Of a stretch of 64,000 nucleotides of DNA, positions 6,281 to 33,270 are shown one piece after another. The notes under the pieces are model-generated. The model saw nothing but the letters and a program-made list of their open reading frames with translations. It ran no database searches and was not told the origin of the DNA. Source of the DNA: Lewinella cohaerens DSM 23179 (GTDB lineage: Bacteria; Bacteroidota; Bacteroidia; Chitinophagales; Saprospiraceae); assembly GCF_000379805.1 (NCBI RefSeq), contig NZ_KB903533.1, positions 108,845 through 172,844 of the forward strand, written 5' to 3'. Positions within the stretch are counted from its first letter, which is position 1. Each line of letters starts with the position of its first letter. The translations under genes and the position numbers were made by a program.

Positions 6281-6469
6281 GTGCTGAAACAAATACTAAG
6301 AACCAAGGGTATTAAACAAAAATGGCTGGCCACGAAGGTAGGCGTCAGTGAAGTGACGGTCTCCAACTGGATACAGGAAAAAACCGCTCCTAAAACCGAA
6401 CATCTTGAAAAACTCAGTGCGCTCCTCGAAGTACCGCTGGCTCAACTGGAGCAGACCTATGGTAAGTAG
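6281..6469 (+). CDS. small XRE/Cro-type HTH regulator upstream of brxA
   Basis: The frame is open from 6161, but the residues before 6281 read like non-coding DNA and overlap the previous gene. A GTG at 6281 begins the conserved domain and gives a 62-residue protein. It is almost entirely a helix-turn-helix: KQKWLATKVGVSEVTVSNWIQ, then a dimer helix with LEKLSALLEVPLAQLEQ. Its last codons overlap the brxA start at 6459 by 11 bases, so the two are probably translationally coupled. Many BREX loci carry a dedicated transcription factor (often WYL-type BrxR). This small Cro-like protein is in the right place to do that job, which is inference from position. Confidence 0.75.
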   Translation: MLKQILRTKGIKQKWLATKVGVSEVTVSNWIQEKTAPKTEHLEKLSALLEVPLAQLEQTYGK

Positions 6470-15217: not shown

Positions 15218-17353
15218 ATGGATAAGTATATTTCAAGGCATATAGATCGGTTGTTGTTAGACCCTAACAACTATCGATTCATAGATAACAAGGATTATCG
15301 CCCTATTTCCATTGAAGAAGTTCCAAATGAAAGGATACAATTACGTACCCGTAACTTTTTAGTAGGTAGAAATGAAGAAGGTATTGCCGATCTGATCACT
15401 AGCTTTAAATCGAATGGCGTATTAAAGTTGGATCCTATCCAGGTAAAAGAGATACCAGATAGCAAAGATTTTTTAGTCGTTGAAGGGAATAGACGCACAG
15501 CCGCCTTAAAATTCCTCTATGAGCAATGGAAAATTGGTAATGATGTAGGTAAGTTAACACAGGAGAGTTTCAAAAGTGTTGATGTCGTTCTTATATCAGA
15601 TGAAAGCCCTATTCAGCATTTGATTACCATGGGGTTGCATCATATTAGTGGTAAAAGAAAATGGAGTCCAGTAAATCAAGCTCAACTTATCTATGACCTT
15701 CGGTTTAAGCATGATATGAGTGAAATGGAAATATGTGATTCATTATCCATAACCAAGCATAGTCTCCGAAGAAACTTAAGGGTCTTGGCTTTGATAGACC
15801 GCTACAAGGAAAGTGATTATGGTGATCAGTTTCAAGCGAATAAGTATTCTATTTTTGAAGAGGTCGTGAAGAAAGTGGAAATGAAGTCGTGGTTGGAATG
15901 GAACGATGATACTTATCAGGCAGAAAACAAAGTAAATGAAGAAAAACTATTTTCATGGATTTCAAAGGAAGAGGTAATTGAGAGGGATGAGGAAAGTGGT
16001 GAAGAAAATAAGATCACCAAAGATCCAATTATTACAAAGAGTCACGAAATAAGAGATTTATCTAAATTCATCAACGACTCAGCGGCAGTCGAACAAATGG
16101 AAGAACGCCGAAGTATAACGGCTGGCTTTGCACTAAGTGACGCAGTTGGTGTACAACGATTGCAAAAAGCAATGGACAATATTGGTAAAGAAGTACAAGC
16201 TGCTTTTCAATTTAGTGAATATCTCGAAGATGAAGATTACTCTAAAGTTGCTATACTTAGAGATAAATTAGATCGCCTTATTCCGAGTAGCAATGGTGTT
16301 TCAGGATTGGTACAGAAGTCTTCAAATCGTTACTTTTCTGATATATCATCACATTTTCATTCTGTGAAAGTTGGGAGTTATCGTAAATTGAAAAACTTAG
16401 ATATAAGCCAGTTTTCCAGAGTGAATATTATTGCAGGTGGTAACAATACAGGTAAGACCTCTTTATTGGAAGCATTGTATCTGCTGACTCGCCTTAATAA
16501 TATTCCTACGCTAATCGAGTTAGAACGATTTAGAGGAAGGTTTTACGATGAATTTCATACCAAGTGGTTTGACAAGCTATTTATTTCCAGCATTGGACTT
16601 AGCGCTGTTTTTAATGATACCGAGATCGGACTTTCTGTCAATAAGCAAGAAACGGAAGAGCAGATTGATAAAAGCCAGTATCTCAATTCTATTATATCTG
16701 AAGCTATCATCAACGGCGAAGAACTGGACGGAACTATCCATTTATTTAACAACAGGGAACCTGAACTGTATTATCAAAAGAGCAAGGTGCTTTGTGAAGC
16801 TACCTTTACTAGCCCATACCGATTCAATGATGACCTGTTGATTAAAGCACATGCCAGGGCTGTTGAAAATCGATATTTAGACGAAGTCGTAGCATTCATC
16901 AATTCAAAAATGGATGAGTCTATTGAAAAAATAGAAATGATTTCTATCGAAAACGAAAGTCGGTTAATGGTAAGTTCGTCTAAACTCGAATATGCTATTG
17001 ATCTTACCAAGTATGGAGAAGGTCTTCAGAGAGTTGTAGAAATTGCATTATTGATGGGCTATAGTCAGAACGGAATTATCTGTATTGATGAACTTGATAG
17101 TGCTATTCATAAAAGCCTGCTAAGAGATTTTACATCCTTCATACAAGAGGCTGCTGCCAAGTTTAACGTCCAAGTATTCTTAACAACGCACAGCAAAGAA
17201 TGTATTGATGCCTTTGTAGAAAACTCTTACCCAGATGATGAATTAACGGCATTTGCGTTAAGTGAAAATAACGATGGAAAGATCATTTCTAACTATTTGC
17301 CAGGCAACAAACTTAAGCAGCTGGTAGATTCCATAAATCTTGATATCCGATGA
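15218..17353 (+). CDS. ParB/Srx-domain and ABC-type AAA ATPase fusion (PARIS/OLD-like ATPase)
   Basis: A 711-residue protein. The N-terminal 120 residues resemble a ParB/Srx nucleotide-handling fold (FLVVEGNRRTAALKFL near residue 87, DPIQVKEI before it). A helical linker with an HTH-like stretch follows. An OLD/AAA_21-type ATPase then has Walker A GGNNTGKTS near 406, a signature-like YGEGLQR, Walker B IICIDELDSAIH and the H-loop LTTHSKE. The stop overlaps the next gene (ATGA at 17350-17353), a TOPRIM-like protein. ATPase plus TOPRIM in two coupled genes is the plan of PARIS (AriA/AriB) and split OLD systems. The ParB-like fusion is not part of canonical AriA. The gene is AT-rich compared with pglX and pglZ, suggesting later insertion into the BREX locus. 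Confidence 0.8.
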   Translation: MDKYISRHIDRLLLDPNNYRFIDNKDYRPISIEEVPNERIQLRTRNFLVGRNEEGIADLITSFKSNGVLKLDPIQVKEIPDSKDFLVVEGNRRTAALKFLYEQWKIGNDVGKLTQESFKSVDVVLISDESPIQHLITMGLHHISGKRKWSPVNQAQLIYDLRFKHDMSEMEICDSLSITKHSLRRNLRVLALIDRYKESDYGDQFQANKYSIFEEVVKKVEMKSWLEWNDDTYQAENKVNEEKLFSWISKEEVIERDEESGEENKITKDPIITKSHEIRDLSKFINDSAAVEQMEERRSITAGFALSDAVGVQRLQKAMDNIGKEVQAAFQFSEYLEDEDYSKVAILRDKLDRLIPSSNGVSGLVQKSSNRYFSDISSHFHSVKVGSYRKLKNLDISQFSRVNIIAGGNNTGKTSLLEALYLLTRLNNIPTLIELERFRGRFYDEFHTKWFDKLFISSIGLSAVFNDTEIGLSVNKQETEEQIDKSQYLNSIISEAIINGEELDGTIHLFNNREPELYYQKSKVLCEATFTSPYRFNDDLLIKAHARAVENRYLDEVVAFINSKMDESIEKIEMISIENESRLMVSSSKLEYAIDLTKYGEGLQRVVEIALLMGYSQNGIICIDELDSAIHKSLLRDFTSFIQEAAAKFNVQVFLTTHSKECIDAFVENSYPDDELTAFALSENNDGKIISNYLPGNKLKQLVDSINLDIR

Positions 17354-18240
17354 ATGAATTTACCCAAGTCATATCCTTCTTTTGCGAAGGGCCACATGAT
17401 GTAGCATTCATCTATAAAATGCTTAAAATAATTGGTTATAAATCCTACGATGCTTGCAAAATAGGGGATCTTCCTATTCCTTTTAACCAACTTATCTTAA
17501 ATGAGGTTAAAAAATATGACATCGAGAATCTCAATATCATTGAAGTTAGAAGAGGTTTTTTGCCAGCGCGTATCTTACATAAGGAGGGGAAATGTATTTT
17601 TCTGTATTCCTTAGGAGGAGACAGTAAGCGAGCCATTCGACAGTCAATGTTGTCGGACTTATTATCTTTTATACCGGAAGAAGGAGAGATTCCAAGATTA
17701 CCGCAAGACACCAGTTTGTCGGTCATTTATCTTTTCGATGCTGATGAGGTTGGTGTACAGTCTAGACTGAGAACAATTAATAATGAGGTCAACGCTAAGC
17801 TTGCTAATAGTAGATTAACATTTGCTAATAATGGCGAATTTCATACTGTCAATCAAATGAATTTTGGGGCTTATGTTTTCACTGGTGAAGATGATGAAAC
17901 TGGATCGCTTGAATCGATCCTTGTTCCATTGATGCGTCAAGAAAACGAAGTGATTTTTGAAGATGCACAAAGTTTTATTGATACGCATTACGATGAGATG
18001 CGGTTATTTCCTTTAAAAATAAGAATTAATGAAGATGAAATAATTGAAGAAAGAAGTGAGAGAGGAAGAGATAAATATAAATTTTATCCCTCTAAATCCC
18101 TTATTGGTGTTACAGGTCAGCTACAATGTTCTGGTAAATCAAATGTTGTTTGTATTGGTGATACTGACTTTTTAACGAAGGACAAGTTAACTAATACCCG
18201 GAAATCTCTTGAGATACTGGATTTCTTAAAGAGAATTTAA
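17350..18240 (+). CDS. TOPRIM-like effector partner of the upstream ATPase (AriB-like)
   Basis: A 296-residue protein whose start codon overlaps the upstream ATPase stop, so the pair is translationally coupled. The N-terminus FFCEGPHDVAFIYKML has the TOPRIM glutamate followed by helix alpha1. Near residues 124-130 IYLFDADEVG supplies the DxD metal-binding strand. This arrangement occurs in OLD nucleases, in DUF4435/AriB of PARIS and in related families. I infer a metal-dependent nuclease unleashed by the ATPase when it senses an anti-restriction or phage protein. It could instead be a different TOPRIM subfamily (for example DUF3226-like); the sequence alone does not settle this. Confidence 0.65.
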   Translation: MNEFTQVISFFCEGPHDVAFIYKMLKIIGYKSYDACKIGDLPIPFNQLILNEVKKYDIENLNIIEVRRGFLPARILHKEGKCIFLYSLGGDSKRAIRQSMLSDLLSFIPEEGEIPRLPQDTSLSVIYLFDADEVGVQSRLRTINNEVNAKLANSRLTFANNGEFHTVNQMNFGAYVFTGEDDETGSLESILVPLMRQENEVIFEDAQSFIDTHYDEMRLFPLKIRINEDEIIEERSERGRDKYKFYPSKSLIGVTGQLQCSGKSNVVCIGDTDFLTKDKLTNTRKSLEILDFLKRI

Positions 18241-18387
18241 CGCAAGAGATTTAAATGGGAAATTCATAGTAGGCTATTATTACAGGGTAAAGGTCAATGA
18301 ATAAACCACAACTGATTTTTTTTAAATTCACAGAATACGCATCTTCTAATCTCTCAACACGTAAAACTCAGCATTCAACCACATTTT

Positions 18388-18999
18388 ATGGACCTATTCA
18401 GTTCAATTGAGCCCTCGCAGCACGAGTTTGCGATCAGAAATGGGGCTTACTATTTTGAGGAAAATTTCTTCCCCAAGAAATATGCCGATGCCTTGTTGGA
18501 GCGATTCATCAAGAATATCGAATGGAAGCAGGAATCCATGAACATGTACGGGAAGGAAGTGAAGTTCCCCCGGCTTACGGCCTGGTACGGAGACGATGAT
18601 AAGCCTTATTCCTTTTCTGGCATCACCCTACAGCCCAAGCCCTGGACCAAGGAGCTGCTCTACATTAAGGAACAAATAGAGCCGCTGGCGGGCGTTGAAT
18701 TCAACAGTGTGCTGCTCAACTTGTACCGCGACGGCAATGACTCGATCTCCTGGCATACGGATGCGGAGAAAGAGCTGGGCGAAAACCCGGTCATCGCCTC
18801 CGTAAATTTTGGCGATACCCGAACCTTTCAGCTCAAGCACATCGAAACGAGCGAGAAAATAAGCATGGATTTGTCTCACGGCAGTATTCTTATCATGAAA
18901 GGAGAGCTTCAGCATTTCTGGAAGCACCAAGTGCCTAAAACCAAGAAGGAGAAACAGGCCCGCGTGAATCTTACTTTTAGAGTAATAAAAGACAAATGA
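18388..18999 (+). CDS. AlkB-like 2-oxoglutarate/Fe(II) dioxygenase
   Basis: A 203-residue protein with the complete AlkB active site. The metal ligands are H and D of SWHTDAE near residue 122 and the distal histidine of LQHFWKH near 175. The 2-oxoglutarate-binding arginines are in RVNLTFR near 192-198. The region just before (LNLYRDGNDSISWH) is the typical nucleotide-recognition lid. AlkB-family enzymes oxidatively remove alkyl groups from nucleobases in DNA or RNA. The stop overlaps the start of the methyltransferase-helicase gene (ATGA at 18996-18999), an uncommon coupling: a demethylase-type enzyme with a methyltransferase-helicase inside BREX. It may act on modified phage DNA, or simply be a repair gene carried along. 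Confidence 0.88.
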   Translation: MDLFSSIEPSQHEFAIRNGAYYFEENFFPKKYADALLERFIKNIEWKQESMNMYGKEVKFPRLTAWYGDDDKPYSFSGITLQPKPWTKELLYIKEQIEPLAGVEFNSVLLNLYRDGNDSISWHTDAEKELGENPVIASVNFGDTRTFQLKHIETSEKISMDLSHGSILIMKGELQHFWKHQVPKTKKEKQARVNLTFRVIKDK

Positions 19000-21900
19000 G
19001 CTACGCGGACAAAATACTGTCTTTATCAGAGCCTTCTTTTGAAGGTATTCGAGCAATTGCGAAACAGCAAATTGCTCATTTACCCAATGGGAAAAAGAAC
19101 CAGTTGTATCGGGAATTAGAGAGAGGCACCGCTTTGCTAGCTTCTCACGAGCAGATGTGCATGTATTTGTATGCCTTCGGAAACATGCATCAGGCCAAGT
19201 TGCGGGATGCCTTTCGAAAAATACCCGAAATTGTTTATCAAGGTCCATTGGAAATAGTGGACTGGGGCTGTGGTCAGGCCATGGGTACGGTCAACTTGTT
19301 TGATCACTTGAAGACGCTGGGCTTAGCGGAAAATGTAAAAAAAGTCACGCTGATTGAGCCCTCCTTAGCGGCACTACAGAGAGGTGAATTACACGTAAAG
19401 CCTTACGTCGGCGAAGAGGTAGCATTGGTAGCGATCAACGAATATTTTGAACGTTTATCCCCGACTGATATTAAAGGAGGAGAAGGTCGCACCGTTTTGC
19501 ACCTGTTTTCTAACATACTTGATGTCGCCCAGATAGATTTAAAGCATTTGGCGAATACTGTTGATGACACCGTTGTTTCAGATAATTACTTGATCTGTGT
19601 AGGTCCTCTTAATCCGACCAATCATCGACTTGATGCTTTTCTCAGGTATTTTGATTCGGACCTAATCAAAGCTATTTATGAATTCGAAACAAGTACCCTC
19701 AATAATAGGAACTGGACCTATAAAGCCAGGATTTACCAGCTGGCGTATAACCAGCAAGGCCACCTTATCCCCATTGAGTATTATCCTACGGTACAATTTC
19801 AAGCGGCTTATGAACTGGATGGTATTGGTACGTTGAGGAAAAAGGGGAAATTAGCCTACGATCCTATTTTGACCCATTTCGAAGTAGCTGCTCCTTTCGA
19901 TTTGGGCGCTAGCGTGTATGATGATGTCCATCCGATCTTGGCGGTACTCAACAATATGATCTGTCGTGGACTGCCAACCAAGAGTAGTATTTACATCGAA
20001 GAGGAGTTTAGGAGAGTTTTTGGTTTAACCCGAAAAGAAGAACATTACGGTGAGGTGAAATTCACTGCAATAGAGGGGAATGAAACGCTACTTGAATCGT
20101 CCGTTCAATTATTTCAGCAGTACCTGGATAGCCAACAAGCTATTGCGGAAGAACATAAAATTCCGCTCCAGCTTTTGCTGACCCCCATTGCAATAGCACG
20201 ATTTCAGAAAGTCTTGCTGGAAGCCATCATTACCGAGCAACTATCCCTGGAACAAGATACCTGGCGGATATTGATTGAGGAAAAAGATGTTCCCTACGGT
20301 CGCTTAGGAGTCAAGGATTTTCAACACCACTTTCATCATCTCACCCAGCTCAGTGAGGAATATGATACGCTATTTCTACCAAAGATTGAGTTGTACATTG
20401 TCAGTAATCAAGACTTTTATCAGTCAGCGCTACAGGCTCAGGAAAACGTCTTTGTCACCATACCTAATTCCCTAAAGAATATGGATTTTGACATGGTGGT
20501 TACCCAATCCATGTTGAAGAGCGTCGCCAGTGATATTGAATCCTTCAGCACATTTAAAGTAGGCAACGACTGTTATTTCAATATCAGAACCATCAACGAA
20601 GTGAGGACGAATCGGATTATTTACACCTCAGATCTTATTCGTTACAAGAATTTGGTGCAAAAAACACAGCAAGGAGCTTATGAAGAATTAGAAACCGTCG
20701 GACCTCATGTTAATTACTTCCTACAACTCTTGTTCCGAAAGGCAACCTTCAGGCCAGGCCAGCTTCCGATACTAGATAGAGCGTTACAAAACCTGCCGGT
20801 GATTGGATTATTACCAACAGGAGGAGGAAAGTCTTTGACCTATCAAATTGCCGCGCTGCTTCAGCCGGGAGTAACCATGGTCATCGACCCTCTGAAATCC
20901 TTGATGAAAGATCAATTGGATGGCTTAATCGCCAATGGGATTGACTGTGCAGCTTATATCAACTCATCCTTGTCGAGAGAGGAAAGAGCTGAAGTAGAGA
21001 AGAAGCTGGAATCCTCCGAGCTACTCATGACTTTCTTATCCCCTGAACGCCTTTCTATATTGAGTTTTCGAGAACGGCTAAAGAACATGCACAACTACAA
21101 TGTGTACTTCTCCTACGGCGTGATTGATGAAGTTCACTGCGTCTCGGAATGGGGGCATGATTTCAGGTTTTCCTATTTGCACCTGGGGAGAAACCTTTAC
21201 AACTATGTCCGTGGTAAAAACAAAGAAATTTCCCTTTTAGGGCTTACCGCTACCGCCTCTTTCGATGTTTTAGCAGATGTTGAGAGAGAGCTTTCTGGTA
21301 ACGGTGCTTTTGATTTGGATGCTGATACTGTTGTGCGGTATGAAAACACCAACCGACTGGAATTACAGTATAAAGTGGAGAGAGTGCCTGTTGAGTTTGG
21401 TGACGATCAATTTTATGATCAAAACGGGATTATTGATCCGTCTTTGCCACGTGCCTTGAATGTTACCAATAAGTGGGCATCGTTTGATTCAAAAAGCAAT
21501 TTTCTTAGTCATTACTACCAAGCGACTCCGGGCTATTTAACTGAATTGCAGACTGCTGAAAATACCAATCGTATAAAAGAGCAGTTTACGGAGCGGCAAA
21601 ATGACAATTCGGGGATGGAAGAAGACCTTTCCATTGGAGTTGATCACGATTATTACGCCCCAAAGTCCGATTATGATCAGGCAGGAATCGTTTTTTGTCC
21701 TCACGTTAATAAAACAGGTTTATCGGTTCGGGTCAATGAGAAAAATCTACTCGGAGCAGGGGTAGAGGATATCACCTCCTATTCAGGCCAAGACAATGAT
21801 GATCTAGCCATGAAAAGCTTGGACCGTTTTCGGGATAATAAAAGCCCTTTAATGGTTGCCACCAAAGCGTTTGGAATGGGGATAGATAAACCCAATGTTC

Positions 21901-23492
21901 GTTTTACGGTGAACATGAACTACTCCAGCTCACTGGAAGCCTTTGTGCAAGAAGCGGGAAGAGCTGGGAGGGATAAGAAAATGGCATTAGCTACTATCCT
22001 GGTATCTGATTACAACCTCGCCCAAGTTAGTAGGCAATATCAATCCAATCAATTTCCTGTTTCTACGCTAAAGAACAAATGGTTTAAACAAGAAGACTTG
22101 GAACAAATTCTTCAGTTCTATAACTTAGAGATACCGGAAGAATTTATTCAATATGCCTCACCCGCCAATGATATTGTAAAGCTGCACTGTAAGCATGACA
22201 ATAAAATGTTTGCCTTAGGCAAATGTAATGCAGAATGTACGGCTTTTAAAGGCTGCTCTTTGCGTAAAGTTTCTAGAGAAACAAAGGGCTGGCGACCAGA
22301 GGAAGAGCTTATTCAAGAATTGAAGGTTCAAGGATTGAACATCACCCGGAAAGCTTTTCAGTACCTAAATGCGGATTACCAAACCATCATGTTTTTCTAC
22401 GGCCTATCCTTTAAGGGGGCTTTGGTCGAAAAGAGGTTTATGTACAACCTGATGAAGGTAGACGAGATTGTCATCCAAAATAGGCAAGGGGTAAGCAATG
22501 GTTTTTTATCAGCACTCACCGGTGCTGATATTGACACCGAGGTTATTGCCTTTATTCCTTACACCAAAGATAACAGTACGGATTTATCGAAGGCCATTTA
22601 CAGGATGTGCTGCATCGAGTTGATAGAAGATTTTACTATAGATTATAGAAACAAGCAATTCAGAATTGTCGCCAGCAGAAAGCAGCAAGGAGCTTACTAC
22701 GGAGGATTACAGCGGTTTCTAGAGAGGTATTACACTTCAGAAAGAGCAGCATTAGAATTAGAAAAAGCCAAGAACAATTCCTTAAACCAAGATGATTTCC
22801 ATTCCATTGAGGAAGAAATTTATAAATGTCTTGCTTACTTAATCGAATTCATCTACGATAAGATTTCTGAGAAAAGGAAAAGGGCGATAAATGATATGCG
22901 TGACTTTTGTATGGAAGGAAGCATAGCAGGTGAATCCTGGTTGCTCCATAATGAGCGAATGAAGGATTTCCTTTATTACTATTTCAATTCTAAATTCGCT
23001 AAAAGTGATTACGTAGCAGAGAATGGAGAACCTTTTTCCTTGGTAGAAGATACGGAGGGTGGGAAAAAATCGAGTGAAGGCATTCTGTTTAAATACCTGC
23101 GCGTCATTGATGATGATGTAGTTGGGATAGGCACGCCATTGGATAATATCAAACACCTCCACGGTGCCATCAGGCTCATTTCTCGATCACTTACGGATAG
23201 TAATCCTGCTTTATCCTTACTGGAAGCCTTTTGTTTAGCTTATTTAGGAGTGGAGAATAATCAAAACCTAAGAAAATCACTAAAGCAAAGGTACACGGAA
23301 GGGATGATCGACTTTTCTGAAAGATTTACTAACCTCCATCTTTTTTGGGAAGTTTTTACCCGGTTCAATGAGTTTTTATCTAGTTATTTGGACGATGCTA
23401 CTTTTGAAGCACTCGTGACAGAAACTACGCTACTCTTGCATGTTGGTCAATTGAATAAAATCAAAGACAAATACCTGGAAAATTATGCTTAA
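18996..23492 (+). CDS. methyltransferase-like domain fused to RecQ-family helicase
   Basis: A 1498-residue protein. Residues about 80-250 look like a class I SAM-dependent methyltransferase: DWGCGQAMGT (motif I), then TLIEPSLAAL (post-I) and LHLFSNILDV. A RecQ-type superfamily 2 helicase follows: an FRPGQ entry motif, Walker A LLPTGGGKSLTYQ near 603-613, motif II IDEVHCVSEWGHDFR near 709, motif III GLTATAS, motif V ATKAFGMGIDKP and motif VI QEAGRAGRD near 984. A cysteine cluster near 1080 (KCNAECTAFKGC) fits a RecQ zinc site. The C-terminal 400 residues are unassigned. Such a fusion is not part of canonical type 1 BREX. It overlaps the next gene by 8 bases. It could also be catalytically dead in the methyltransferase part. 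Confidence 0.85.
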   Translation: MSYADKILSLSEPSFEGIRAIAKQQIAHLPNGKKNQLYRELERGTALLASHEQMCMYLYAFGNMHQAKLRDAFRKIPEIVYQGPLEIVDWGCGQAMGTVNLFDHLKTLGLAENVKKVTLIEPSLAALQRGELHVKPYVGEEVALVAINEYFERLSPTDIKGGEGRTVLHLFSNILDVAQIDLKHLANTVDDTVVSDNYLICVGPLNPTNHRLDAFLRYFDSDLIKAIYEFETSTLNNRNWTYKARIYQLAYNQQGHLIPIEYYPTVQFQAAYELDGIGTLRKKGKLAYDPILTHFEVAAPFDLGASVYDDVHPILAVLNNMICRGLPTKSSIYIEEEFRRVFGLTRKEEHYGEVKFTAIEGNETLLESSVQLFQQYLDSQQAIAEEHKIPLQLLLTPIAIARFQKVLLEAIITEQLSLEQDTWRILIEEKDVPYGRLGVKDFQHHFHHLTQLSEEYDTLFLPKIELYIVSNQDFYQSALQAQENVFVTIPNSLKNMDFDMVVTQSMLKSVASDIESFSTFKVGNDCYFNIRTINEVRTNRIIYTSDLIRYKNLVQKTQQGAYEELETVGPHVNYFLQLLFRKATFRPGQLPILDRALQNLPVIGLLPTGGGKSLTYQIAALLQPGVTMVIDPLKSLMKDQLDGLIANGIDCAAYINSSLSREERAEVEKKLESSELLMTFLSPERLSILSFRERLKNMHNYNVYFSYGVIDEVHCVSEWGHDFRFSYLHLGRNLYNYVRGKNKEISLLGLTATASFDVLADVERELSGNGAFDLDADTVVRYENTNRLELQYKVERVPVEFGDDQFYDQNGIIDPSLPRALNVTNKWASFDSKSNFLSHYYQATPGYLTELQTAENTNRIKEQFTERQNDNSGMEEDLSIGVDHDYYAPKSDYDQAGIVFCPHVNKTGLSVRVNEKNLLGAGVEDITSYSGQDNDDLAMKSLDRFRDNKSPLMVATKAFGMGIDKPNVRFTVNMNYSSSLEAFVQEAGRAGRDKKMALATILVSDYNLAQVSRQYQSNQFPVSTLKNKWFKQEDLEQILQFYNLEIPEEFIQYASPANDIVKLHCKHDNKMFALGKCNAECTAFKGCSLRKVSRETKGWRPEEELIQELKVQGLNITRKAFQYLNADYQTIMFFYGLSFKGALVEKRFMYNLMKVDEIVIQNRQGVSNGFLSALTGADIDTEVIAFIPYTKDNSTDLSKAIYRMCCIELIEDFTIDYRNKQFRIVASRKQQGAYYGGLQRFLERYYTSERAALELEKAKNNSLNQDDFHSIEEEIYKCLAYLIEFIYDKISEKRKRAINDMRDFCMEGSIAGESWLLHNERMKDFLYYYFNSKFAKSDYVAENGEPFSLVEDTEGGKKSSEGILFKYLRVIDDDVVGIGTPLDNIKHLHGAIRLISRSLTDSNPALSLLEAFCLAYLGVENNQNLRKSLKQRYTEGMIDFSERFTNLHLFWEVFTRFNEFLSSYLDDATFEALVTETTLLLHVGQLNKIKDKYLENYA

Positions 23493-24048
23493 GGAGACAC
23501 TAAACCAGTCTTTAATTGACTTAGAGCAAAGTTTGATTGATATCAACTCGGCAAGAACTCAAGTAAGTAACGTCGCGGATAAAAGCGAAGCGCTTATTCG
23601 TATTTTTACCACTGTTCTTCAGAACTTAAAGGAAATTGATGAGCGACTAGCTCTCGATAGTGGAGATTTTAAGGAAAGACTTGATGAAAGCTTCAGCAGC
23701 CTGAATGATGAATTACTTAAAGTGACTTCTGAGGTATCCTCAAAATCGAAGGAACTAAACAGTGAACTAGATGATGTTTTTGGCTTGTTTTCCAAGAAGA
23801 TAGACACGCTAAAAATTGACATAGAAAGCTTGAGCAAGGAACTTCATGTTACTGAGGCTCGAATTAGTAAACTGGATTTGAAGAAAGATTTCTTAGATGT
23901 TATTGAACAGTCTAAAAAAGAAATTGATACTGCTTTTCAACAAAAAATGGAGGAGCTTGAATCAAAGATTAGTGCTGCTTCCAATCGGAATCTGGTCGCA
24001 TTGATAATTGGTTTGGTTTTACTAGTTTTGGTGGTTCTTGTCAAATAG
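23485..24048 (+). CDS. tail-anchored coiled-coil protein partnered with the helicase
   Basis: A 187-residue protein overlapping the helicase stop by 8 bases, so translation is likely coupled. About 165 residues of serine-, lysine- and leucine-rich heptads form a long coiled coil. A single hydrophobic helix (LVALIIGLVLLVLVVLV) ends the protein. With no signal peptide, the coiled coil should be cytoplasmic. The layout mirrors the protein at 5632-6204, though sequence similarity is not obvious beyond coiled-coil character. I infer a membrane tether or oligomerisation scaffold for the methyltransferase-helicase; there is no known family I can name. Confidence 0.65.
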   Translation: MLKETLNQSLIDLEQSLIDINSARTQVSNVADKSEALIRIFTTVLQNLKEIDERLALDSGDFKERLDESFSSLNDELLKVTSEVSSKSKELNSELDDVFGLFSKKIDTLKIDIESLSKELHVTEARISKLDLKKDFLDVIEQSKKEIDTAFQQKMEELESKISAASNRNLVALIIGLVLLVLVVLVK

Positions 24049-24109: not shown

Positions 24110-26617
24110 ATGAATAGAATAGAAGCGTCTTTAAATATTTTGTTTCAAACCCACCGCGTCATCTTCTGGTACGACAAGGAGGAAAAGATGCGTCCGGAGT
24201 ACGAGCAGATTTCCCTGGAGGGTATCGAGAAACTGGAGGTGAGCAACAACGAATTTGCGGTCAAAGCACGCGTATTACAGTCTACGCAGCCGGATGATCG
24301 CTTGTTGCTCTATTTTCCCCAATCGGAGCCTCCCATGGAGCAGAACTGGCTGCTCGACCTACAGTTGGCGCACAAAGTGTTCCATACCGACCAGGAAGCG
24401 CTGTACCTGCAAGACCTGGGGCTGGATTATTTATTCAAGGAACTGGTGCAGCAGCACCTGGAGTTTTTTGAAAGCAAAGAACGACGCGCTCAACTACGCG
24501 AACTACTCGCTGAAGGCGACCAGGAGCCGGATCTGCGCTTCAAGATGATGGCAGTCGTTTTTGGTACGGAGTATCCTAACCTGGAGGCTTACATCCAGGT
24601 TTACGCGGGCGCATTTGTCGATGAAAACAACCGGATCGAGCGCGATCTGGAACGCTTTCGATTACGGGAGGTGTTTTGGCGGGAGGTGAGCCGTAAGTTC
24701 AACTACCCTACGGACGAAAAGACGGGGATCTACGATTTTTTACTGGATGTGTTCGCCCGTAATTTTAGTCCGCTTAATGCAGGCCGTTCTATCAAGGAAA
24801 CCCGGATTTTGCTTTCACTGTGGAAGGATGCGATTTCTTACCAGGAAACTTTTCGGCGCGTATCTGCGAAAATTGCCAGTGATCTGCTGGTCGTGAACCT
24901 CCTGGAGGACTGTGAATTAGAACCCATCTTATCCGACGATTTGTTCGAGCTGGTGGATCGTCGGATCATTTACCTATTGGCTACTCGTTTGGCTAGTGGA
25001 GCGATAAATTTACCCGCTTTTCTGGGACATCTAAAGTTACGGGAGAACAAGTTTTGGTATGCGGACTATGCCGACTTCTACACCTGTCTGGAACAAGGGG
25101 CCCTGCTCTTGGATAAAGTCCAGCGGGCCGAGGAGGTCAACTTTTCTTCGGTAGAAGATGCCGCCCGACAGTACGCGCAGGAGTTGCACCTGATTGACTA
25201 TCACTACCGGAAATTTGTCTACCACTACCGGCAGACAAACCAGAATGCTATTCTGGCTCCTTTAGAAGAGCGCATCCGCAAAGTCTACAGTAATGATTGG
25301 TTGTTGAAGATCAATCATCAGCTTCAGGACAGGATCAATGAAATGGATCATTGGATCCAGCGTTCCCCACAAGCGCAGTCCAATTTCTTCGTCCATCACG
25401 TAGAGCCGGTCACTAGTCGCCCGTCTCGTTTGTTTGTGATCATCTCCGATGCTTTGCGTTACGAAAATGGCTGGGAGTTATGCCAGAAATTACAAGGTGC
25501 CAAACGCTACGAAGCAGAGATGGATTACCTGATCACCAGCTTGCCTTCGTATACCCAGTTGGGGATGGCGGCACTGCTCCCTCACCGAAAATTGGCCATT
25601 AAACCAGAAGATGGGCAGGTGCTGGCCGACGGGATGTCGACCCTGGGGCTCCAGGGCCGCAACAAAGTATTGGAAGCGAATGCCGGGGTACGAACCGTAG
25701 CCATTAACGCAGAAGACTTTATGAAGATGAACGCCAGTACGGAGGGCCGTGCGTTTGTCAAACAATACGACCTGATCTACATTTATCACAACCGGATCGA
25801 CAAGGCCGGTGATGATACCACTTCGGAAGATAAAGTCTTCGAAGCGGTAGAAAAAGAAATCAGCTTCCTCCAGGACCTTTTGCGTAAGATTGGCAATATG
25901 AATGGCAATAACATTTATATCACTGCTGATCACGGCTATTTGTATCAACACGAGCAACTGGAAGAGAGTGAATTTACGAAAGTTGACCTGCTAGGGGAAG
26001 ACTATAAAATCAACCGCAGGTTTGTACTCGGTAAGGGTAATAGTGGGACGGTTCCTCCTGCGCTAAAGCTATTTACGGCAGAGCAGCTGGGGCTGGAACC
26101 CGGCGTAGAGGTCTTGATCACAAAAGGAATTAACCGGCTGCGGGTACGGGGTGCCGGATCACGTTACGTGCACGGCGGAGCTTCCTTACAGGAAATTGTG
26201 GTGCCGCTGGTAAAAGTAGCCCGTAAGCGAGAGGATACTACGCGACAGGTCGAGGTCGACATCATTAAGTCTACCGATAAAATTACGACCAATCTGCTGG
26301 GTGTTTCCTTTTTGCAACAGGAGCTGGTTAGTGATAAGATCCTGCCGCGTCAATTGCGCATCTATTTGCGTGCAGAAGATGGCACCAAGTTGTCGGATAT
26401 CTTCAATTACACCTTTGATGCCACGGAAGGTAGTGAACGGCAACGTGAAGTAAAACACCGGTTCCAGCTAAGTTCCCAGGCCAGTGGCAAATACAAGAAT
26501 CAACGCATTTCACTGGTGCTGGAAGAACCCGTAGCGGGAAGCTCGCGCTGGAAGGAGTACGAATCGTATTTTTATTACCTCAACATTTCTTTCACCAATG
26601 ATTTTGACGACTTTTAG
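24110..26617 (+). CDS. pglZ: BREX phosphatase-superfamily protein PglZ
   Basis: An 835-residue protein, usual length for type 1 PglZ. The alkaline-phosphatase-superfamily core begins at VIISDALRYENGWEL (about 442-456), the hallmark metal/nucleophile motif of the PglZ domain. It continues to YITADHGYLYQHEQL near 602 with the Asp/His metal ligands. The N-terminal 380 residues are the helical PglZ-specific part. PglZ is required for BREX modification and exclusion and is a metal-dependent nuclease/phosphodiesterase in some systems. It lies 61 bases after the insert genes. Its TAG stop (26615-26617) coincides with the first bases of a MITE-like element, which may therefore provide the stop. Confidence 0.94.
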   Translation: MNRIEASLNILFQTHRVIFWYDKEEKMRPEYEQISLEGIEKLEVSNNEFAVKARVLQSTQPDDRLLLYFPQSEPPMEQNWLLDLQLAHKVFHTDQEALYLQDLGLDYLFKELVQQHLEFFESKERRAQLRELLAEGDQEPDLRFKMMAVVFGTEYPNLEAYIQVYAGAFVDENNRIERDLERFRLREVFWREVSRKFNYPTDEKTGIYDFLLDVFARNFSPLNAGRSIKETRILLSLWKDAISYQETFRRVSAKIASDLLVVNLLEDCELEPILSDDLFELVDRRIIYLLATRLASGAINLPAFLGHLKLRENKFWYADYADFYTCLEQGALLLDKVQRAEEVNFSSVEDAARQYAQELHLIDYHYRKFVYHYRQTNQNAILAPLEERIRKVYSNDWLLKINHQLQDRINEMDHWIQRSPQAQSNFFVHHVEPVTSRPSRLFVIISDALRYENGWELCQKLQGAKRYEAEMDYLITSLPSYTQLGMAALLPHRKLAIKPEDGQVLADGMSTLGLQGRNKVLEANAGVRTVAINAEDFMKMNASTEGRAFVKQYDLIYIYHNRIDKAGDDTTSEDKVFEAVEKEISFLQDLLRKIGNMNGNNIYITADHGYLYQHEQLEESEFTKVDLLGEDYKINRRFVLGKGNSGTVPPALKLFTAEQLGLEPGVEVLITKGINRLRVRGAGSRYVHGGASLQEIVVPLVKVARKREDTTRQVEVDIIKSTDKITTNLLGVSFLQQELVSDKILPRQLRIYLRAEDGTKLSDIFNYTFDATEGSERQREVKHRFQLSSQASGKYKNQRISLVLEEPVAGSSRWKEYESYFYYLNISFTNDFDDF

Positions 26618-26845: not shown

Positions 26846-28849
26846 ATGAAAGCGCTTGACCAAAAGCTCAACGATCATTTTGCGGGTAAAGTCGTCCGTA
26901 AGGATCTTACCAAACTGGTAAAAGGCAATGCCATTGTCCCCACCTACGTACTGGAGTACCTATTGGGGCAGTACTGTGCCACCGATGATGAGGAAACCAT
27001 TAACGCTGGTGTGGAGACCGTTCGCAGTATCATCGCCAAGCACTTCGTTCACCGAGACGAAGCTCAGATCATTAAATCTACCATCCGGGAAAGAGGGACT
27101 CACCGCATTATCGATAAGGTATCGGTACGGCTGAATGAGCACAAAGATCGTTACGAAGCATCTTTCGCAAATCTTGGCCTCAAAAACGTAGTGATTGACG
27201 ACAATTTCATCCGTCAGCACCAAAAGTTGTTGTCGGAGGGCGTCTGGTGTATAACCGTGATCGGTTACCTTGCTTCTGATGAACGCGATGTCTCTCCCTG
27301 GCTCATAGAAAGTCTGAAGCCCATCCAGATCAGTCACATTGATGTGGACGAGTACAAAACCGCCCGGCGGGCTTTGAGTAAAGAAGAATGGGTAGACACG
27401 CTGCTACAAACCATTGGCTTGAACCCGGAAGAGTTCAGCTTTCGCTCCAAGCTTTTGCAGCTGGCCCGCCTGATCCCTTTTGCCGAAAATAACTACAATC
27501 TGATTGAGTTGGGGCCTAAAGGAACGGGGAAATCCCACATCTTTTCGGAGCTTTCTCCCCATGGTATTCTACTTTCCGGAGGAGAAGTAACCAAAGCCAA
27601 GCTATTTGTCAATAACAGTTCTGGCGATATCGGCTTGGTCGGCTATTGGGATGTGGTGGCTTACGATGAATTTGCGGGCAAATCCAAAAGTGTGGACAAG
27701 GGCTTGGTCGATATTATGAAGAATTACATGGCCAATAAGAGCTTCTCGCGGGGTACCCAGGTGTACGGCGCAGCAGCCAGTATGGCCTTTGTGGGGAATA
27801 CCGACCACTCGGTGCCCTACATGCTAAGGCACAGTAATCTTTTTGATGCCTTGCCTAAGCAATATTACGATACCGCTTTCCTGGATCGTATTCACGCCTA
27901 TCTGCCAGGCTGGGAAATCCAGAAGCTGCGGCAAGACATGTTTACCAACGACTACGGCTTCATTGTCGACTACCTGGCCGAAGTGCTTAAGGAGTTGCGC
28001 AAGGAAGACCACATGCACGACTACAAGGCGTATTTTTCCCTTTCTAGTAGTATCACTACGCGAGATCGTGACGCTATTGCCAAAACCTTCTCGGGCCTCG
28101 TTAAGGTCATCTACCCCCACGGAGAACTGACCGCCGAAGAAGCGCGGGAATTACTGGAATTCGCGATTGAAAGCCGTAAGCGCGTTAAGCAGCAACTCAT
28201 CAAAATGGATGAAACCTTTGAGGAGGTAGACTTCAGTTACGAGTACAAAGGCTCCGGCAAAAAACGCATGGTAGAGACGCTGGAAGTCCTGGAACACCAG
28301 CAGCCCCAGCTTAGTGAAGAAGAAGCCTTGGCCCAGTCCGTTGCCACTGCACCAAAGGAGTTGCCAGCGGTCGTTCTGAAGGAAGGGCAGACCATCATCA
28401 TGGATAACCAAACGGGGGTATCCTACGACCAACTTTTTGGTCCGTACCTCAAAGGCGCAGAAAGTATCAAGCTGATCGACCCTTACGTTCGCTTGCCGTA
28501 TCAGTTGCGCAACTTCATGGAGTTTGCGCGTTTGATAGCCCAAAGCAAGGATGCCTCAGACGAAGTAGCCCTGCACCTGGTCACCAACAACAACGAAGAC
28601 TACCTGGAGAACGCCAAATCAGCCTTTCAGCAAATGGCCGACTCGCTGGACCCCTTAGGCATCCGCTTCACCTACGAATTTGACAACGACATTCACGATC
28701 GCTCCATCCTCCTGGACAACGGCTGGAAGATCCTCATGGGTCGCGGCCTGGACATCTTCCAGAAAACCGGCGGCTGGTTCGACATTGCAGAATACGATCA
28801 GGAACGGCGGCAGTGTAAGGCTTGTGAGGTTACTTATTTGTGGGGGTGA
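26846..28849 (+). CDS. brxL: BREX AAA+ protein BrxL with MITD1-like C-terminal domain
   Basis: A 667-residue protein. The BrxL ATPase core has Walker A LGPKGTGKSHIFSELS near 222, followed by LLSGGEVTKAKLF and Walker B YWDVVAYDEFAGKSK near 270. BrxL forms DNA-encircling rings required for type 1 BREX defence. The C-terminus (about 525-667) is unexpected: IDPYVRLPYQLRNFMEF, then IHDRSILLDNGWKILMGRGL near 620-640 and a cysteine-containing tail. This strongly resembles the phospholipase-D-like C-terminal domain of MITD1 (MIT_C), whose human member has HDREIRFNNGW and IGRGLDYF. That family binds membranes or acts as a dimeric PLD-like fold. I see no Lon-type Ser-Lys protease segment. Confidence 0.9.
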   Translation: MKALDQKLNDHFAGKVVRKDLTKLVKGNAIVPTYVLEYLLGQYCATDDEETINAGVETVRSIIAKHFVHRDEAQIIKSTIRERGTHRIIDKVSVRLNEHKDRYEASFANLGLKNVVIDDNFIRQHQKLLSEGVWCITVIGYLASDERDVSPWLIESLKPIQISHIDVDEYKTARRALSKEEWVDTLLQTIGLNPEEFSFRSKLLQLARLIPFAENNYNLIELGPKGTGKSHIFSELSPHGILLSGGEVTKAKLFVNNSSGDIGLVGYWDVVAYDEFAGKSKSVDKGLVDIMKNYMANKSFSRGTQVYGAAASMAFVGNTDHSVPYMLRHSNLFDALPKQYYDTAFLDRIHAYLPGWEIQKLRQDMFTNDYGFIVDYLAEVLKELRKEDHMHDYKAYFSLSSSITTRDRDAIAKTFSGLVKVIYPHGELTAEEARELLEFAIESRKRVKQQLIKMDETFEEVDFSYEYKGSGKKRMVETLEVLEHQQPQLSEEEALAQSVATAPKELPAVVLKEGQTIIMDNQTGVSYDQLFGPYLKGAESIKLIDPYVRLPYQLRNFMEFARLIAQSKDASDEVALHLVTNNNEDYLENAKSAFQQMADSLDPLGIRFTYEFDNDIHDRSILLDNGWKILMGRGLDIFQKTGGWFDIAEYDQERRQCKACEVTYLWG

Positions 28850-29125: not shown

Positions 29126-30076
29126 ATGCCAAGGTATGCCTGGGGCGATATGCTGCCATTCTTGGACTCCAATACTATTCAAAATCAAGGCAGAGGAGTC
29201 AAAGTAGCACTCCTAGATACTGGAGTAGACTTCACCCATCCTGCATTAGCACATCTAAATAAAGCAGGGCATTGCTTCGATGCCAGTGGAGAACATTTAC
29301 AGATTGACAATGAATTTGTTACCGGTAATGATGCTGTGTTTGACAACAACGGTACCTCCTTCAGTTATCATGGTTCCGAGCTCGCCGGTATTCTAGCGGG
29401 TTGGTACGTAGGAGATGGAGATAATCAGTATCTAGGAATTGCGCCGGGCATAGATCTATATATATTTAAGGTGTCCACTTACGATAATTATATCGGGTCG
29501 GATGCTTATTACCATGCACTCGCTTATGCTGTTTATGGCTTAGATGTTGATATTATTTGTTCTGCTGTATATCCTTTTGACAGTGAATACGAGAAGATAG
29601 GATTCGGCCATGATAAATATAGTAAAGTGTTTGATGAAGTAGAACGAAGAGGTATCCTGTATTTCCAATGTCTTAAAAACGCGAATTTGGTAGACACGAT
29701 TTTGGATTTCAATTTTCCGGCGAATCAAAAAGTCGCTTTGAAAATTGGAGCGATGAGTAAATACTTGTATGATGATTTTCAAGTGAAATCACCCTATGAT
29801 TATAGCAGTGAAATAAACTATTTGCTGCCAACAATAGATACAATAATTTGTCATCAAAAAGAAAGCCTATTTAAGTTGAGCCCACTTAGTGCGAGCTACG
29901 CAACTGCTGTTATGGCGGGTATTGCCTGCATCATATTGAGTCGAGACAGGCTAAGTGCAAACGATTTCGGCTTAAGGTTTCACTCCGATCATTTGCGGAG
30001 AAATCTGAAGCATGCATGTTTACCTGTTAGCAACGTTGTATTCTCTTTACAAGAAATGTACTTATATATACCTTAA
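29126..30076 (+). CDS. intracellular S8 (subtilisin-like) serine protease
   Basis: A 316-residue protein without signal peptide or propeptide. The catalytic triad is visible: Asp in VALLDTGVDFTHP near 33, His in SFSYHGSELAGILAGW near 82, Ser in SASYATAVMAG near 264. The last replaces the usual GTSMATP but keeps the serine. Lack of export signals puts it in the cytoplasm, unlike most S8 proteases. It has its own promoter and is followed at 11 bases by an exported protein and then a pentapeptide-like membrane protein, which look like one operon. Several defence and conflict systems use intracellular S8 proteases as effectors; such a role here is inference from location in a defence island. Confidence 0.88.
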   Translation: MPRYAWGDMLPFLDSNTIQNQGRGVKVALLDTGVDFTHPALAHLNKAGHCFDASGEHLQIDNEFVTGNDAVFDNNGTSFSYHGSELAGILAGWYVGDGDNQYLGIAPGIDLYIFKVSTYDNYIGSDAYYHALAYAVYGLDVDIICSAVYPFDSEYEKIGFGHDKYSKVFDEVERRGILYFQCLKNANLVDTILDFNFPANQKVALKIGAMSKYLYDDFQVKSPYDYSSEINYLLPTIDTIICHQKESLFKLSPLSASYATAVMAGIACIILSRDRLSANDFGLRFHSDHLRRNLKHACLPVSNVVFSLQEMYLYIP

Positions 30077-30087
30077 ACCTAATTGTC

Positions 30088-32130
30088 ATGAAGTATGGGT
30101 ATTTACTTTTTCTGCTAATTGGAACTCTGGATCTGTCAGCACAAAATTTATTCAGAGATGCAATTTGGATCGAATCGAATATTAAGTTCACGCAAGGAAG
30201 GAAAAATATAGCTATCGCTGAAGATTCGATTAGTCAACAGCGTTTAGTTAGACTCTTAGCAGCTAGTTTGCAGTTGGATTCTCTGGGAATAGCCAATCTA
30301 ACAATTGAGGATATTTTCAAAAAGCTTGCTGAGGGTAACCCCTTTATTACCAGTAATAACAGAAATACCAAGCCGGGGGCATTGGAATTTACGCGTCCAA
30401 TTCAAAATTTTAGCGATAAGTATTTGGGTAATATAGATCAAAGCGATCTTTCCTCTAAAACTTTCGGCATTCCCCAAATAGCCGATGGTTTTGCCAAATT
30501 CCTAGTAACCAGAACCAAGGAGGAGCTCTCGATTTCCTTCTTTCGCCGGTTTCAGCATAAATTAGAACAACAGCAGGATTTACGTATCCTATTTCCAGCT
30601 ACTTACGAAACGCTGCGTACGGCTGATAAACAGATTTACGCTTACGAGCGCTATCTGGAAAGCCTGCGTTATAGTTTTACCAACGACCTACAGCTGCTAC
30701 CTACCCAGCTACAGTATTATTTACAGCGAATGCCCATAACTAAAGATACAGTAGCAAATAACGCACTATTGGATGTGTTGCAGTTAACCCAATATTTGCT
30801 TGAAGACCGTCAGGGAAAGCCTGAGCAGGAACGCGGATTCTGGGATTACCTTAATTACCTTGCTGATGATTCTTTTATTCATCAGGCAGCTCTGTCTGAT
30901 ACCGCTAATGATAGGCTTAAAATACTGAATGGACACCTCCAATTAAGCAAAGCAATTGCCGAGTCTTTTTGGAATGCGGAGAGGGAAATCTGGGAGGACC
31001 CGGCCGAGGTTTTTCGAGCGCTAAGCGATGAGCAGACTTTGAAAATTTATTTGGGATTACTTTACCCTAAAACCAAAGATTACGCTATTGGGCTTGACAA
31101 ACAAGGAAGTTTAGTCACTTTTGGTGAACTACTACACGCTAAGAGTAAAGACTTGAATCAGCTCCAATCACTCAAAGCAGAACTGCTCAGATTTGTAGAA
31201 AACGGAGAACGATTTACAGATGAGTTCAAAGCATTCAAAGCATTAAAAGATAGGAACCAGGAGACAGATACCAACACATACGAATTGTTATATCCGATGC
31301 TGGAATCTATGTTCAATATGTTTGAAGCGGGCTATAGTCTTAGTCAACTGAGTGATCATAAAGTAAAAAGGAACGACAATAAAGAGGGAACGATAACACC
31401 GGAAATTTTCTTCCGATTATTGAGACAGCTTAACGAATTAAATTTACATATCTCTCAGGCACGCTACGGAGCCGGGATCACCAACTTACTCAGCGTGCTC
31501 AGCGAGGTAGGAGAAATTGAAAATGCGAAAACAAAAAAGGTTGTAAAAGAGGTGTTCCGCTATGGGTATTTCGCAGCAGCCGTAGCGGATGCTGATGATT
31601 CAGATGAAGTCGCACAGGCTATCGAAACATTCGCCCTGCCAGTCGGCAGTAGTATACAAAAAAAGCACAGCCGCTTTTCTATCTCCTTGAATGCTTACAG
31701 TGGGCTCACCTACGGCAAAGAATACTTGGTGGATTTGGAAGAAAACGATACTAAAGTTGATTCCCTGGAACGAGGGATACTGGCAATATCTGCCCCCATC
31801 GGTATCGGTGTCAACCTTGGTCTTCGGAAATGTGGTAGTGTTTCATTATACGCTTCCTTTGTTGATATCGGTGCGCTAACGGCCTATCGCTTCAATGATC
31901 CGAATGCAGCCGACTTACCCGCTTTCGAGTGGGAAAATATTCTTGCCCCCGGTGCCTACTTGGTATATGGACTGCCGCATGATATACCCGTTAGTATTGG
32001 TTTTGGATTACAGAGCGGGCCACAACTCAGGCGCGTGAGTGGTGATTTTTCTATCCCGGAAAGTCGTACCCGACGAATGGGCATTTTCCTGAGTGTAGAT
32101 ATTCCGATTCTACATTTCTATACTCGTTAA
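30088..32130 (+). CDS. exported protein of unknown function in the protease operon
   Basis: A 680-residue protein with a signal peptide (MKYGYLLFLLIGTLDLSAQ). Residues 20-510 are helical and charged, with no motif I recognise. The last 160 residues change to short alternating hydrophobic strands (SFSISLNAYSG, GILAISAPIGIGVNLGL, YLVYGLPHDIPVSIGFGL) ending in a terminal aromatic (HFYTR). That pattern fits an outer-membrane beta-barrel or beta-rich terminal domain. The gene lies 11 bases after the subtilase and 12 before the next gene, so it is almost surely cotranscribed. It may be the envelope component on which the cassette acts. I cannot assign a family. Confidence 0.6.
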   Translation: MKYGYLLFLLIGTLDLSAQNLFRDAIWIESNIKFTQGRKNIAIAEDSISQQRLVRLLAASLQLDSLGIANLTIEDIFKKLAEGNPFITSNNRNTKPGALEFTRPIQNFSDKYLGNIDQSDLSSKTFGIPQIADGFAKFLVTRTKEELSISFFRRFQHKLEQQQDLRILFPATYETLRTADKQIYAYERYLESLRYSFTNDLQLLPTQLQYYLQRMPITKDTVANNALLDVLQLTQYLLEDRQGKPEQERGFWDYLNYLADDSFIHQAALSDTANDRLKILNGHLQLSKAIAESFWNAEREIWEDPAEVFRALSDEQTLKIYLGLLYPKTKDYAIGLDKQGSLVTFGELLHAKSKDLNQLQSLKAELLRFVENGERFTDEFKAFKALKDRNQETDTNTYELLYPMLESMFNMFEAGYSLSQLSDHKVKRNDNKEGTITPEIFFRLLRQLNELNLHISQARYGAGITNLLSVLSEVGEIENAKTKKVVKEVFRYGYFAAAVADADDSDEVAQAIETFALPVGSSIQKKHSRFSISLNAYSGLTYGKEYLVDLEENDTKVDSLERGILAISAPIGIGVNLGLRKCGSVSLYASFVDIGALTAYRFNDPNAADLPAFEWENILAPGAYLVYGLPHDIPVSIGFGLQSGPQLRRVSGDFSIPESRTRRMGIFLSVDIPILHFYTR

Positions 32131-32142
32131 CTGTAACATGAT

Positions 32143-33270
32143 ATGTATAAATACCTGATTACCCTGCTCACTGGTATTGTTATCGGTGCGCTAGTGTTTT
32201 TTGATTCTGCTGAAAAAATCCTTGATTTTTTTCTAGACCGCTGGCAAATGGCCTTGATTATTGCATTAGTTATGATCTTATTCGCCTGGGCTATTTATAC
32301 ATTTTTTGACAAAATTGCTCAAAAAGCATTGGGGGTTGTTGTTCCGGAGTATCCAGAACTTGTTGAAAATACATTCCAGGCGGTAGAGAATTACCGAGAA
32401 GGTAACAAGGAAGAGCTTTCTGAAAACCTTCAAGTACTACTAAAAAAAGTAGCTGCAAAATATGGAGAATGGCGTGCTAGGCGGTTTTTCTTAGGCGTAC
32501 TTCTGGGGGTGGTTACGTTGTTGTTTAGTATTTTTGGTTCCCTTCTATTAAGGAACCAAAATATTCTCATTGCCACGCAAGTAAAAAATGAGGAAATAGC
32601 AATGCTGGAAAGAAAAATTGATAAAATTAGGGAGTCACTTCAAAATCAGTATACTCGGAATAACCGACCTCCAACAGAATTGGTTGAATCCTTCTTTGAA
32701 CACGTGAATGCATTAGATAACTTAGGAGTATACGTTTCTAATGTTAGACTCTCTGGGATGCAAATAAATGGTGATTCAAGAGTTTCCGGTGATCTGAGCA
32801 ATATATATATAGACAATTCGAACTTCCAGCACTCATCCTTTGTAGATTGCAATTTCAAGAATTCTGATTTATCTCATTCTGTAATTAGTAATTGTAATTT
32901 TTATAATTGTAACATGGACAGTATAACATTGAAGGGGGTAGACCTTGATCGGGTGGTCTTTCGAAAAACAGAGTCATTAAGCTTTTGCTGTGATGATACT
33001 TATTTCGGAACAGATCATGATGATACTCCAGATTTTAATGATGTGATATTTTTGGAGAATGAAGCCATTTCGGCAAAAGAAATTAAGCTACTCCGTAGTT
33101 GGGGTGCGACTATAGGCAAAGAAGAGGTACTTGACATAATTGACAGCCTCAGAATAGAATGTTCCAAGCTGGAAAAAAAAGCTCACAATTCTTACGAAGA
33201 CAAGAATATTTATGATTATTGCATAATGGACTTGGAATGGTTCGAGGGGATATTGAACGATAAAAAATAA
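32143..33270 (+). CDS. membrane protein with pentapeptide-repeat-like domain
   Basis: A 375-residue protein. Two transmembrane helices lie near residues 3-22 and 35-55, and a third near 117-138. A short coiled coil comes next, then about eight quasi-pentapeptide units (for example SNIYIDNSNFQHSSF, CNFKNSDLSHSVI, CNFYNCNMDSITL near 218-265), which form a right-handed beta helix in related proteins. The topology would put the repeats in the cytoplasm, but that is uncertain. It is the last gene of the protease operon. Pentapeptide-repeat membrane proteins occur in many signalling and defence cassettes, mostly without known function. Confidence 0.65.
   Translation: MYKYLITLLTGIVIGALVFFDSAEKILDFFLDRWQMALIIALVMILFAWAIYTFFDKIAQKALGVVVPEYPELVENTFQAVENYREGNKEELSENLQVLLKKVAAKYGEWRARRFFLGVLLGVVTLLFSIFGSLLLRNQNILIATQVKNEEIAMLERKIDKIRESLQNQYTRNNRPPTELVESFFEHVNALDNLGVYVSNVRLSGMQINGDSRVSGDLSNIYIDNSNFQHSSFVDCNFKNSDLSHSVISNCNFYNCNMDSITLKGVDLDRVVFRKTESLSFCCDDTYFGTDHDDTPDFNDVIFLENEAISAKEIKLLRSWGATIGKEEVLDIIDSLRIECSKLEKKAHNSYEDKNIYDYCIMDLEWFEGILNDKK

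Follow-up and report, generated by a model that had tools for sequence, protein, structure and literature searches.

What does a BrxL ring do when the Lon-like domain at its C-terminus has given way to a domain shared with a human cytokinesis protein? The question is raised by a locus in the 64,000-nucleotide stretch of Lewinella cohaerens DSM 23179 that we analysed (the window), where the ORF at 26846-28849 on the plus strand is brxL, encoding a 667-aa, MIT_C-tailed BrxL variant. The PADLOC BrxL model PDLC02508 matched residues 1-665 with 1025 bits, and Pfam placed BrxL_N (PF20442) at residues 11-141 (26876-27268, E 2.5e-49) and the AAA+ domain BrxL_ATPase (PF13337) at residues 152-464 (27299-28237, E 6.1e-130), both far above their cut-offs; a Walker A sequence, GPKGTGKS, is seen in the translation of the AAA+ domain. 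The gene is the last of a type-1 BREX operon, all on the plus strand, comprising brxA (6405-7073), brxB (7061-7657), brxC (7654-11133, from profile searches), the BREX-1 adenine methyltransferase gene pglX (11275-15042; NF033452, 1324 bits), BREX-1 type A pglZ upstream of brxL (24110-26617; Pfam and TIGR02687) and brxL itself. A block of other genes (15218-24048) lies between pglX and pglZ. It includes a PDC-M38A/B pair (ParB-like plus AAA ATPase, with a DUF3226 protein as partner) and an AlkB-like 2OG oxygenase, besides a RecQ/DpdF-like helicase of 1498 aa whose start resembles a methyltransferase and a coiled-coil ORF whose end is hydrophobic. On the 3' side of brxL (29126-33270) are a subtilase-family protein (Peptidase_S8), a 680-aa protein without a Pfam match and a pentapeptide-repeat membrane protein.

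The preliminary description of this DNA had likened residues from about 620 to 667 to the C-terminus of MITD1 and had seen no Lon-like segment. The likeness is borne out and extends beyond those residues: MIT_C (PF16565), a PLD-like domain, matched residues 524-665 (28415-28840) with E 1.7e-46 and 158 bits versus a cut-off of 25, covering nearly the full length of the domain (profile positions 1-141 of 142), and phmmer aligned residues 516-660 with human MITD1 (4a5z) at E 1.1e-20. Both motifs on which the likeness had been based lie where claimed, IHDRSILLDNGW at residues 616-627 and MGRGLDIFQK at residues 631-640. Chance resemblance was rejected by a shuffle control with MITD1 as the query, in which the real BrxL tail scored 80 bits and the best of 1000 shuffled tails 6 bits. 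The "Cys-rich" end did not hold up, as it contains merely two cysteines, C657 (39/44 non-redundant tails) and C660; with cysteine at 660 in only 20 of the 44, a metal site was dropped as a candidate. Pfam found no MIT domain in the window BrxL, so that the N-terminal, ESCRT-III-binding MIT of MITD1 is absent.

The absence of a Lon-like segment was likewise confirmed. Pfam listed no Lon_C match for the window BrxL, and two Lon-tailed BrxL scanned alike as positive controls (L058 and L059) gave the Lon_C match; the Lon-tailed BrxL of PDB 8emc/8emh aligned to the window protein over residues 2-467 only, and TIGR02653, the full Lon-tailed model, matched only residues 3-477 with 618.5 bits, below its curated cut-off of 628.25. 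An AlphaFold2 model of residues 505-667, built from 33 aligned tails, reached a mean pLDDT of 90.1 and a pTM of 0.87, and its best PDB matches were the MITD1 entries 4a5z and 2ymb (Foldseek E 8.8e-17, TM 0.83-0.88; VIA Z 21.7, rmsd 2.2 over 153). Other proteins of the PLD fold fell far below MITD1, with Z of 9.1 for SauUSI, 8.9 for phosphatidylserine synthase, 8.2 for Tdp1, 8.1 for NucT, 7.6 for NgoAVII and 7.3 for BfiI; values near 8 may reflect merely a common arrangement. Nothing MITD1-like was found among the best 50 matches listed from a viral structure library. A full-length model, poor over residues 216-353 and used for the linker only, predicts a flexible linker at residues 484-508 (28295-28369, pLDDT < 50). 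A Lon-like fold for the tail was therefore rejected on Pfam, sequence alignment and structure matches alike, and the profile match, the alignments, the predicted fold and the tree all fully bear out the identification of the tail as a MITD1-type PLD-like domain in place of Lon.

Although this replacement stands, its implied rarity does not. Among 395 genomes of the window's phylum we found 46 near-full-length BrxL_ATPase matches, of which 25 lie in ORFs that also have MIT_C, 13 in long proteins without it and 8 in tail-less proteins of 477-503 aa; among 398 genomes from the phylum of Methylobacter bin G396 the tail is present in 7 of 17 BrxL. These counts exclude partial BrxL_ATPase matches (11 in the first sample and 1 in the second), and become 24/45 and 5/15 without G000 in the first sample and G396 and G397 in the second, which were chosen for having MIT_C. 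In the literature, 1030 of 2913 type-1 BREX taxa are described as having a BrxL with an "HKD-endoDNase" bearing an HRD motif instead of the Lon domain (Rakesh & Krishnan, NAR 2026, PMC12839542); from the described position and motif, we infer that this domain is MIT_C, although the main text of that paper names neither MIT_C nor MITD1. With about a third of BrxL in the literature and about half in our samples, the tail often stands in for the Lon-like one, and the proviso that it might already be the norm among type-1 BrxL is largely borne out by these counts. MIT_C was found in 4 of 198 genomes from the phylum of Desulfobulbaceae bin G395, over the cut-off in 5 of 190 genomes from the class of Methylobacter bin G396, and in 25 of 72,556 plasmid records, mostly annotated as brxL and including Actinomycetota. 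No tblastn match to the tail was found in phage records; MIT_C-tailed BrxL is carried on IMG/VR contigs classed as viral (L156-L167). Some brxL genes are split over several frames with the MIT_C portion as an ORF of its own, as in L142 (6430-8471, on a Hymenobacter sp. BRD67 plasmid), L086 and L108. One tail-less BrxL (L042, 477 aa) has a core that falls within the main MIT_C clade, a position that points to tail loss; L051 (489 aa) resembles it by score and was not kept in the tree.

We compared 83 distinct BrxL tails and then 44 non-redundant ones, the latter drawn from a slightly enlarged set of loci. In all 44 non-redundant tails the same ten residues recur without exception (R549, Q553, H617, R619, G626, W627, R633, G634, D636 and R655), seven of them polar (R549, Q553, H617, R619, R633, D636 and R655), and human MITD1 has every one of the ten. 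The canonical PLD motif is HxKx4Dx6GSxN (PMC3634480). Its counterparts in the window are the HxRxxxxD motif HDRSILLD (residues 617-624, 28694-28717), in which Lys is changed to Arg, and GRGLD (residues 632-636, 28739-28753) in the place of GSxN, and the tails as a set fail to match the HKD phosphodiesterase motif, with HxR for HxK, Asp, Asn or Ser at 624, and GRGLD or DRGLD for GSxN. At the position of the HKD aspartate, 624, the 44 tails have Asp in 34, Asn in 9 and Ser in 1, MITD1 has Asn, and a quick tree of 47 rows requires 9 changes, which indicates that D624 is dispensable. An acid occurs at 618 or 632 in 47/47 non-redundant rows; strong compensation between these two positions was rejected, the swap being a single change on the tree. 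Judged by this conservation, an invariant set shared with MITD1 together with an unconserved HKD aspartate weakens the published inference of nuclease activity.

What, then, might the tail do? We favour, at slightly under an even chance, a phosphodiester-binding and ring-pairing module in an ordinary type-1 BREX BrxL variant, and not a proven nuclease. The solved structure of a Lon-tailed BrxL shows rings on DNA that are built from the N-terminal and AAA+ domains; the tail links one ring to another, and residues 469-497 serve as a hinge (PMC10164562). By analogy with that Acinetobacter structure, the N-terminal and AAA+ domains of the window protein would form a ring around foreign DNA, from whose C-terminal face MIT_C would hang via its short flexible linker; because the core is homologous over residues 2-467 and the tail follows a linker as in the solved BrxL, MIT_C would sit where the Lon-like domain otherwise connects two rings tail to tail. 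The polar set would then hold on to a phosphodiester, most probably in DNA that is inside the chamber or on its way out, and MIT_C might either pair rings, grip DNA, or both. ATP hydrolysis by the Lon-tailed BrxL is required for restriction, as judged by E280Q, and the substitutions T658W and Q661W at the Lon-like interface did not lower phage restriction (PMC10164562), so that ring pairing is possibly dispensable for defence.

Against a binding module stand the strict constancy of one His and several Arg, a frequent sign of catalysis, the presence of PLD-fold nucleases and Tdp1 among the relatives after MITD1, and the latest survey of BREX, which takes this domain for an active DNase (PMC12839542). 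That published proposal, in which the tail is an HRD-type (HKD-like) DNase for invading DNA that the BrxL ring threads or holds, is a credible possibility that we nonetheless hold to be somewhat doubtful. H617 is kept in 82 of the 83 distinct tails (Gln in one) and in all 44 non-redundant ones, and R619 in 83 of 83, as strictly as in enzymes; an acid is kept beside this pair, at 618 or 632, in every row; and the single-motif nuclease Nuc acts as a dimer, which BrxL rings could supply (PMC6008594). The acid is a less telling sign than its constancy suggests, given the one tree change behind the 618/632 swap, D624 is not conserved, and GSxN is replaced by GRGLD. The Lys-to-Arg change is the one that kills PLD1 and PLD2, of which PLD1 K898R and PLD2 K758R are standard dead mutants. 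Human MITD1 has the same residues and, to our knowledge, no nuclease activity. We rate the phosphodiester-binding module slightly above an active DNase because of the variable D624, the Lys-to-Arg change and the altered GSxN, set against the strictly kept His and Arg.

A tether to anionic lipids, which would keep the BREX ring at the site of phage DNA entry on the inner membrane, much as MITD1 acts with ESCRT-III, seems improbable. MITD1 binds membranes through the same fold and needs to do so for abscission (PMC6015221), human MITD1 groups with one BrxL clade, and one bacterial dynamin-family GTPase (L144) has a C-terminal MIT_C in a membrane-remodelling context; membrane binding by BrxL would be carried over from MITD1 by analogy. 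This sole dynamin example, however, is without R549 and W627, conservation falls on polar residues of the PLD active-site type, and the window tail is just 34% identical to MITD1. We know of no BrxL that binds membranes. A nucleic-acid role for the tail is at least as likely as membrane binding, because BrxL is a DNA-loaded ring (PMC10164562). Least probable by far is a structural spacer or protein-protein module without a ligand: the Lon-like tail that was replaced is catalytically dead and structural (PMC10164562, PMC12839542), and BrxL without any tail exist (8/46, with L042 nested in the MIT_C clade), but such a part would hardly be expected to keep ten residues, seven of them polar, invariant across 44 non-redundant tails and in human MITD1.

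The sequence comparison also bears on where the MITD1 domain came from. Human MITD1, 34% identical to the window tail, reaches 44-49% identity to one BrxL clade (L147, L002, L003, L150 and L156-L163) but does not exceed about 40% with the other listed tails. The branch joining it to this clade has support of 100/100 in one tree and 100/99 in another, from which L026, L027, L144 and the fragment L101 were omitted; these trees have one eukaryotic sequence, are unrooted, sample few phyla without archaea, and have long branches meeting at MITD1. An AU test on the MIT_C tree gave p 0.003, with MITD1 placed among non-BrxL bacterial rows on the "other" side, and hence does not concern MITD1 alone; because of this mixture, the claim rests on the two branch supports and the identities. 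With one eukaryotic sequence and a root on the MITD1 branch allowed, MITD1 as sister to the BrxL clade and MITD1 inside it both fit. The simplest reading is that the MITD1 tail came from a BrxL tail, and we put forward tentatively, at rather less than an even chance, that the MITD1 C-terminal domain descends from the BREX BrxL tail in a clade of brxE-containing loci. Members of this clade come from Thioflavicoccus and Hymenobacter plasmids, with more on contigs classed as viral, and two of its BREX loci (L154 and L155) carry brxE together with a PglZ whose annotation is just "PglZ domain-containing protein" and not type A.

In the core tree this clade lies apart from the main MIT_C clade. An initial AU test placing all MIT_C BrxL together gave p 2.65e-07, with the tail-less L042 and the very divergent L152 in the set; after removal of L020, L152, L042 and L051 a single origin was not rejected (p 0.281, or 0.255 with L059 also removed). 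As the rejection vanished, we make no claim of multiple fusion origins. The tally of tree cores (126, 18 and 2) was ascertained by MIT_C and thus gives no frequency. MIT_C architectures other than BrxL are rare. The dynamin (L144, 5631-8474, on plasmid pTs485 of Candidatus Thiodictyon syntrophicum) is a 947-aa protein with Dynamin_N at residues 65-293 and MIT_C at 798-936, and this combination was found in one plasmid record and in no viral contig. We also observed a protein in which Sel1 repeats come after MIT_C and the BrxL core is missing (L023, 790-3414), a small protein with IF2_N and MIT_C (L143, 5452-6501, on Paenarthrobacter plasmid pYJN5-1), and MIT_C-like proteins adjoining AAA_15/DUF3696-type ATPases (L026, 1018-1956, and L027, a 319-aa ORF on the minus strand with Ser at the motif His position), possibly a separate two-gene system.

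There is still no agreement on the killing step of BREX restriction, and if between a third and a half of type-1 BrxL have a PLD-fold tail, knowing whether it cuts DNA, grips DNA or binds membrane settles what these systems do. The invariant set shared with human MITD1 connects a phage-defence domain with a factor of human cytokinesis and makes the question testable by single point mutants. If the descent is true, a phosphodiester-gripping site of anti-phage rings would have found a second use in attaching ESCRT-III to membranes, and the ligands of BrxL tails and of MITD1 may be of one kind, so that either protein could serve to find the ligand of the other.

The tail swap itself is already published, and the window gene adds one more example to a BrxL variant that was known before; PF16565 is mentioned together with BrxL in a genomics paper of 2025 (PMC12715929). 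Beyond print, as far as we found, are the invariant residues shared with MITD1, which cast doubt on the nuclease reading, and the link of MITD1 to one BrxL clade. In open-licence PMC papers we found PF16565 in a single paper, and neither MITD1 with horizontal gene transfer nor "bacterial dynamin" together with MITD1, and the close link to one human protein is apparently undiscussed there. PADLOC PDLC02508 takes in the window BrxL whole, from residue 1 to 665, and is silent on what its tail does. The variant of Rakesh & Krishnan (PMC12839542) is, like that of the window, a Lon replacement in type-1 BREX with the Lys-to-Arg motif, and differs in being read as an active DNase, a reading that the conservation found here weakens. 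The Lon-tailed BrxL of PDB 8emc/8emh (Shen et al. 2023, PMC10164562) is alike in its BrxL_N and AAA+ core over residues 2-467, whereas its C-terminal domain is Lon-like and ring-joining where the window protein has MIT_C. Human MITD1 (4a5z/2ymb) is alike in fold (TM 0.83-0.88, Z 21.7) and in all ten invariant residues of the tail, but is a eukaryotic cytokinesis protein in which an N-terminal MIT domain binds ESCRT-III and which, unlike the window BrxL, has no AAA+ ring.
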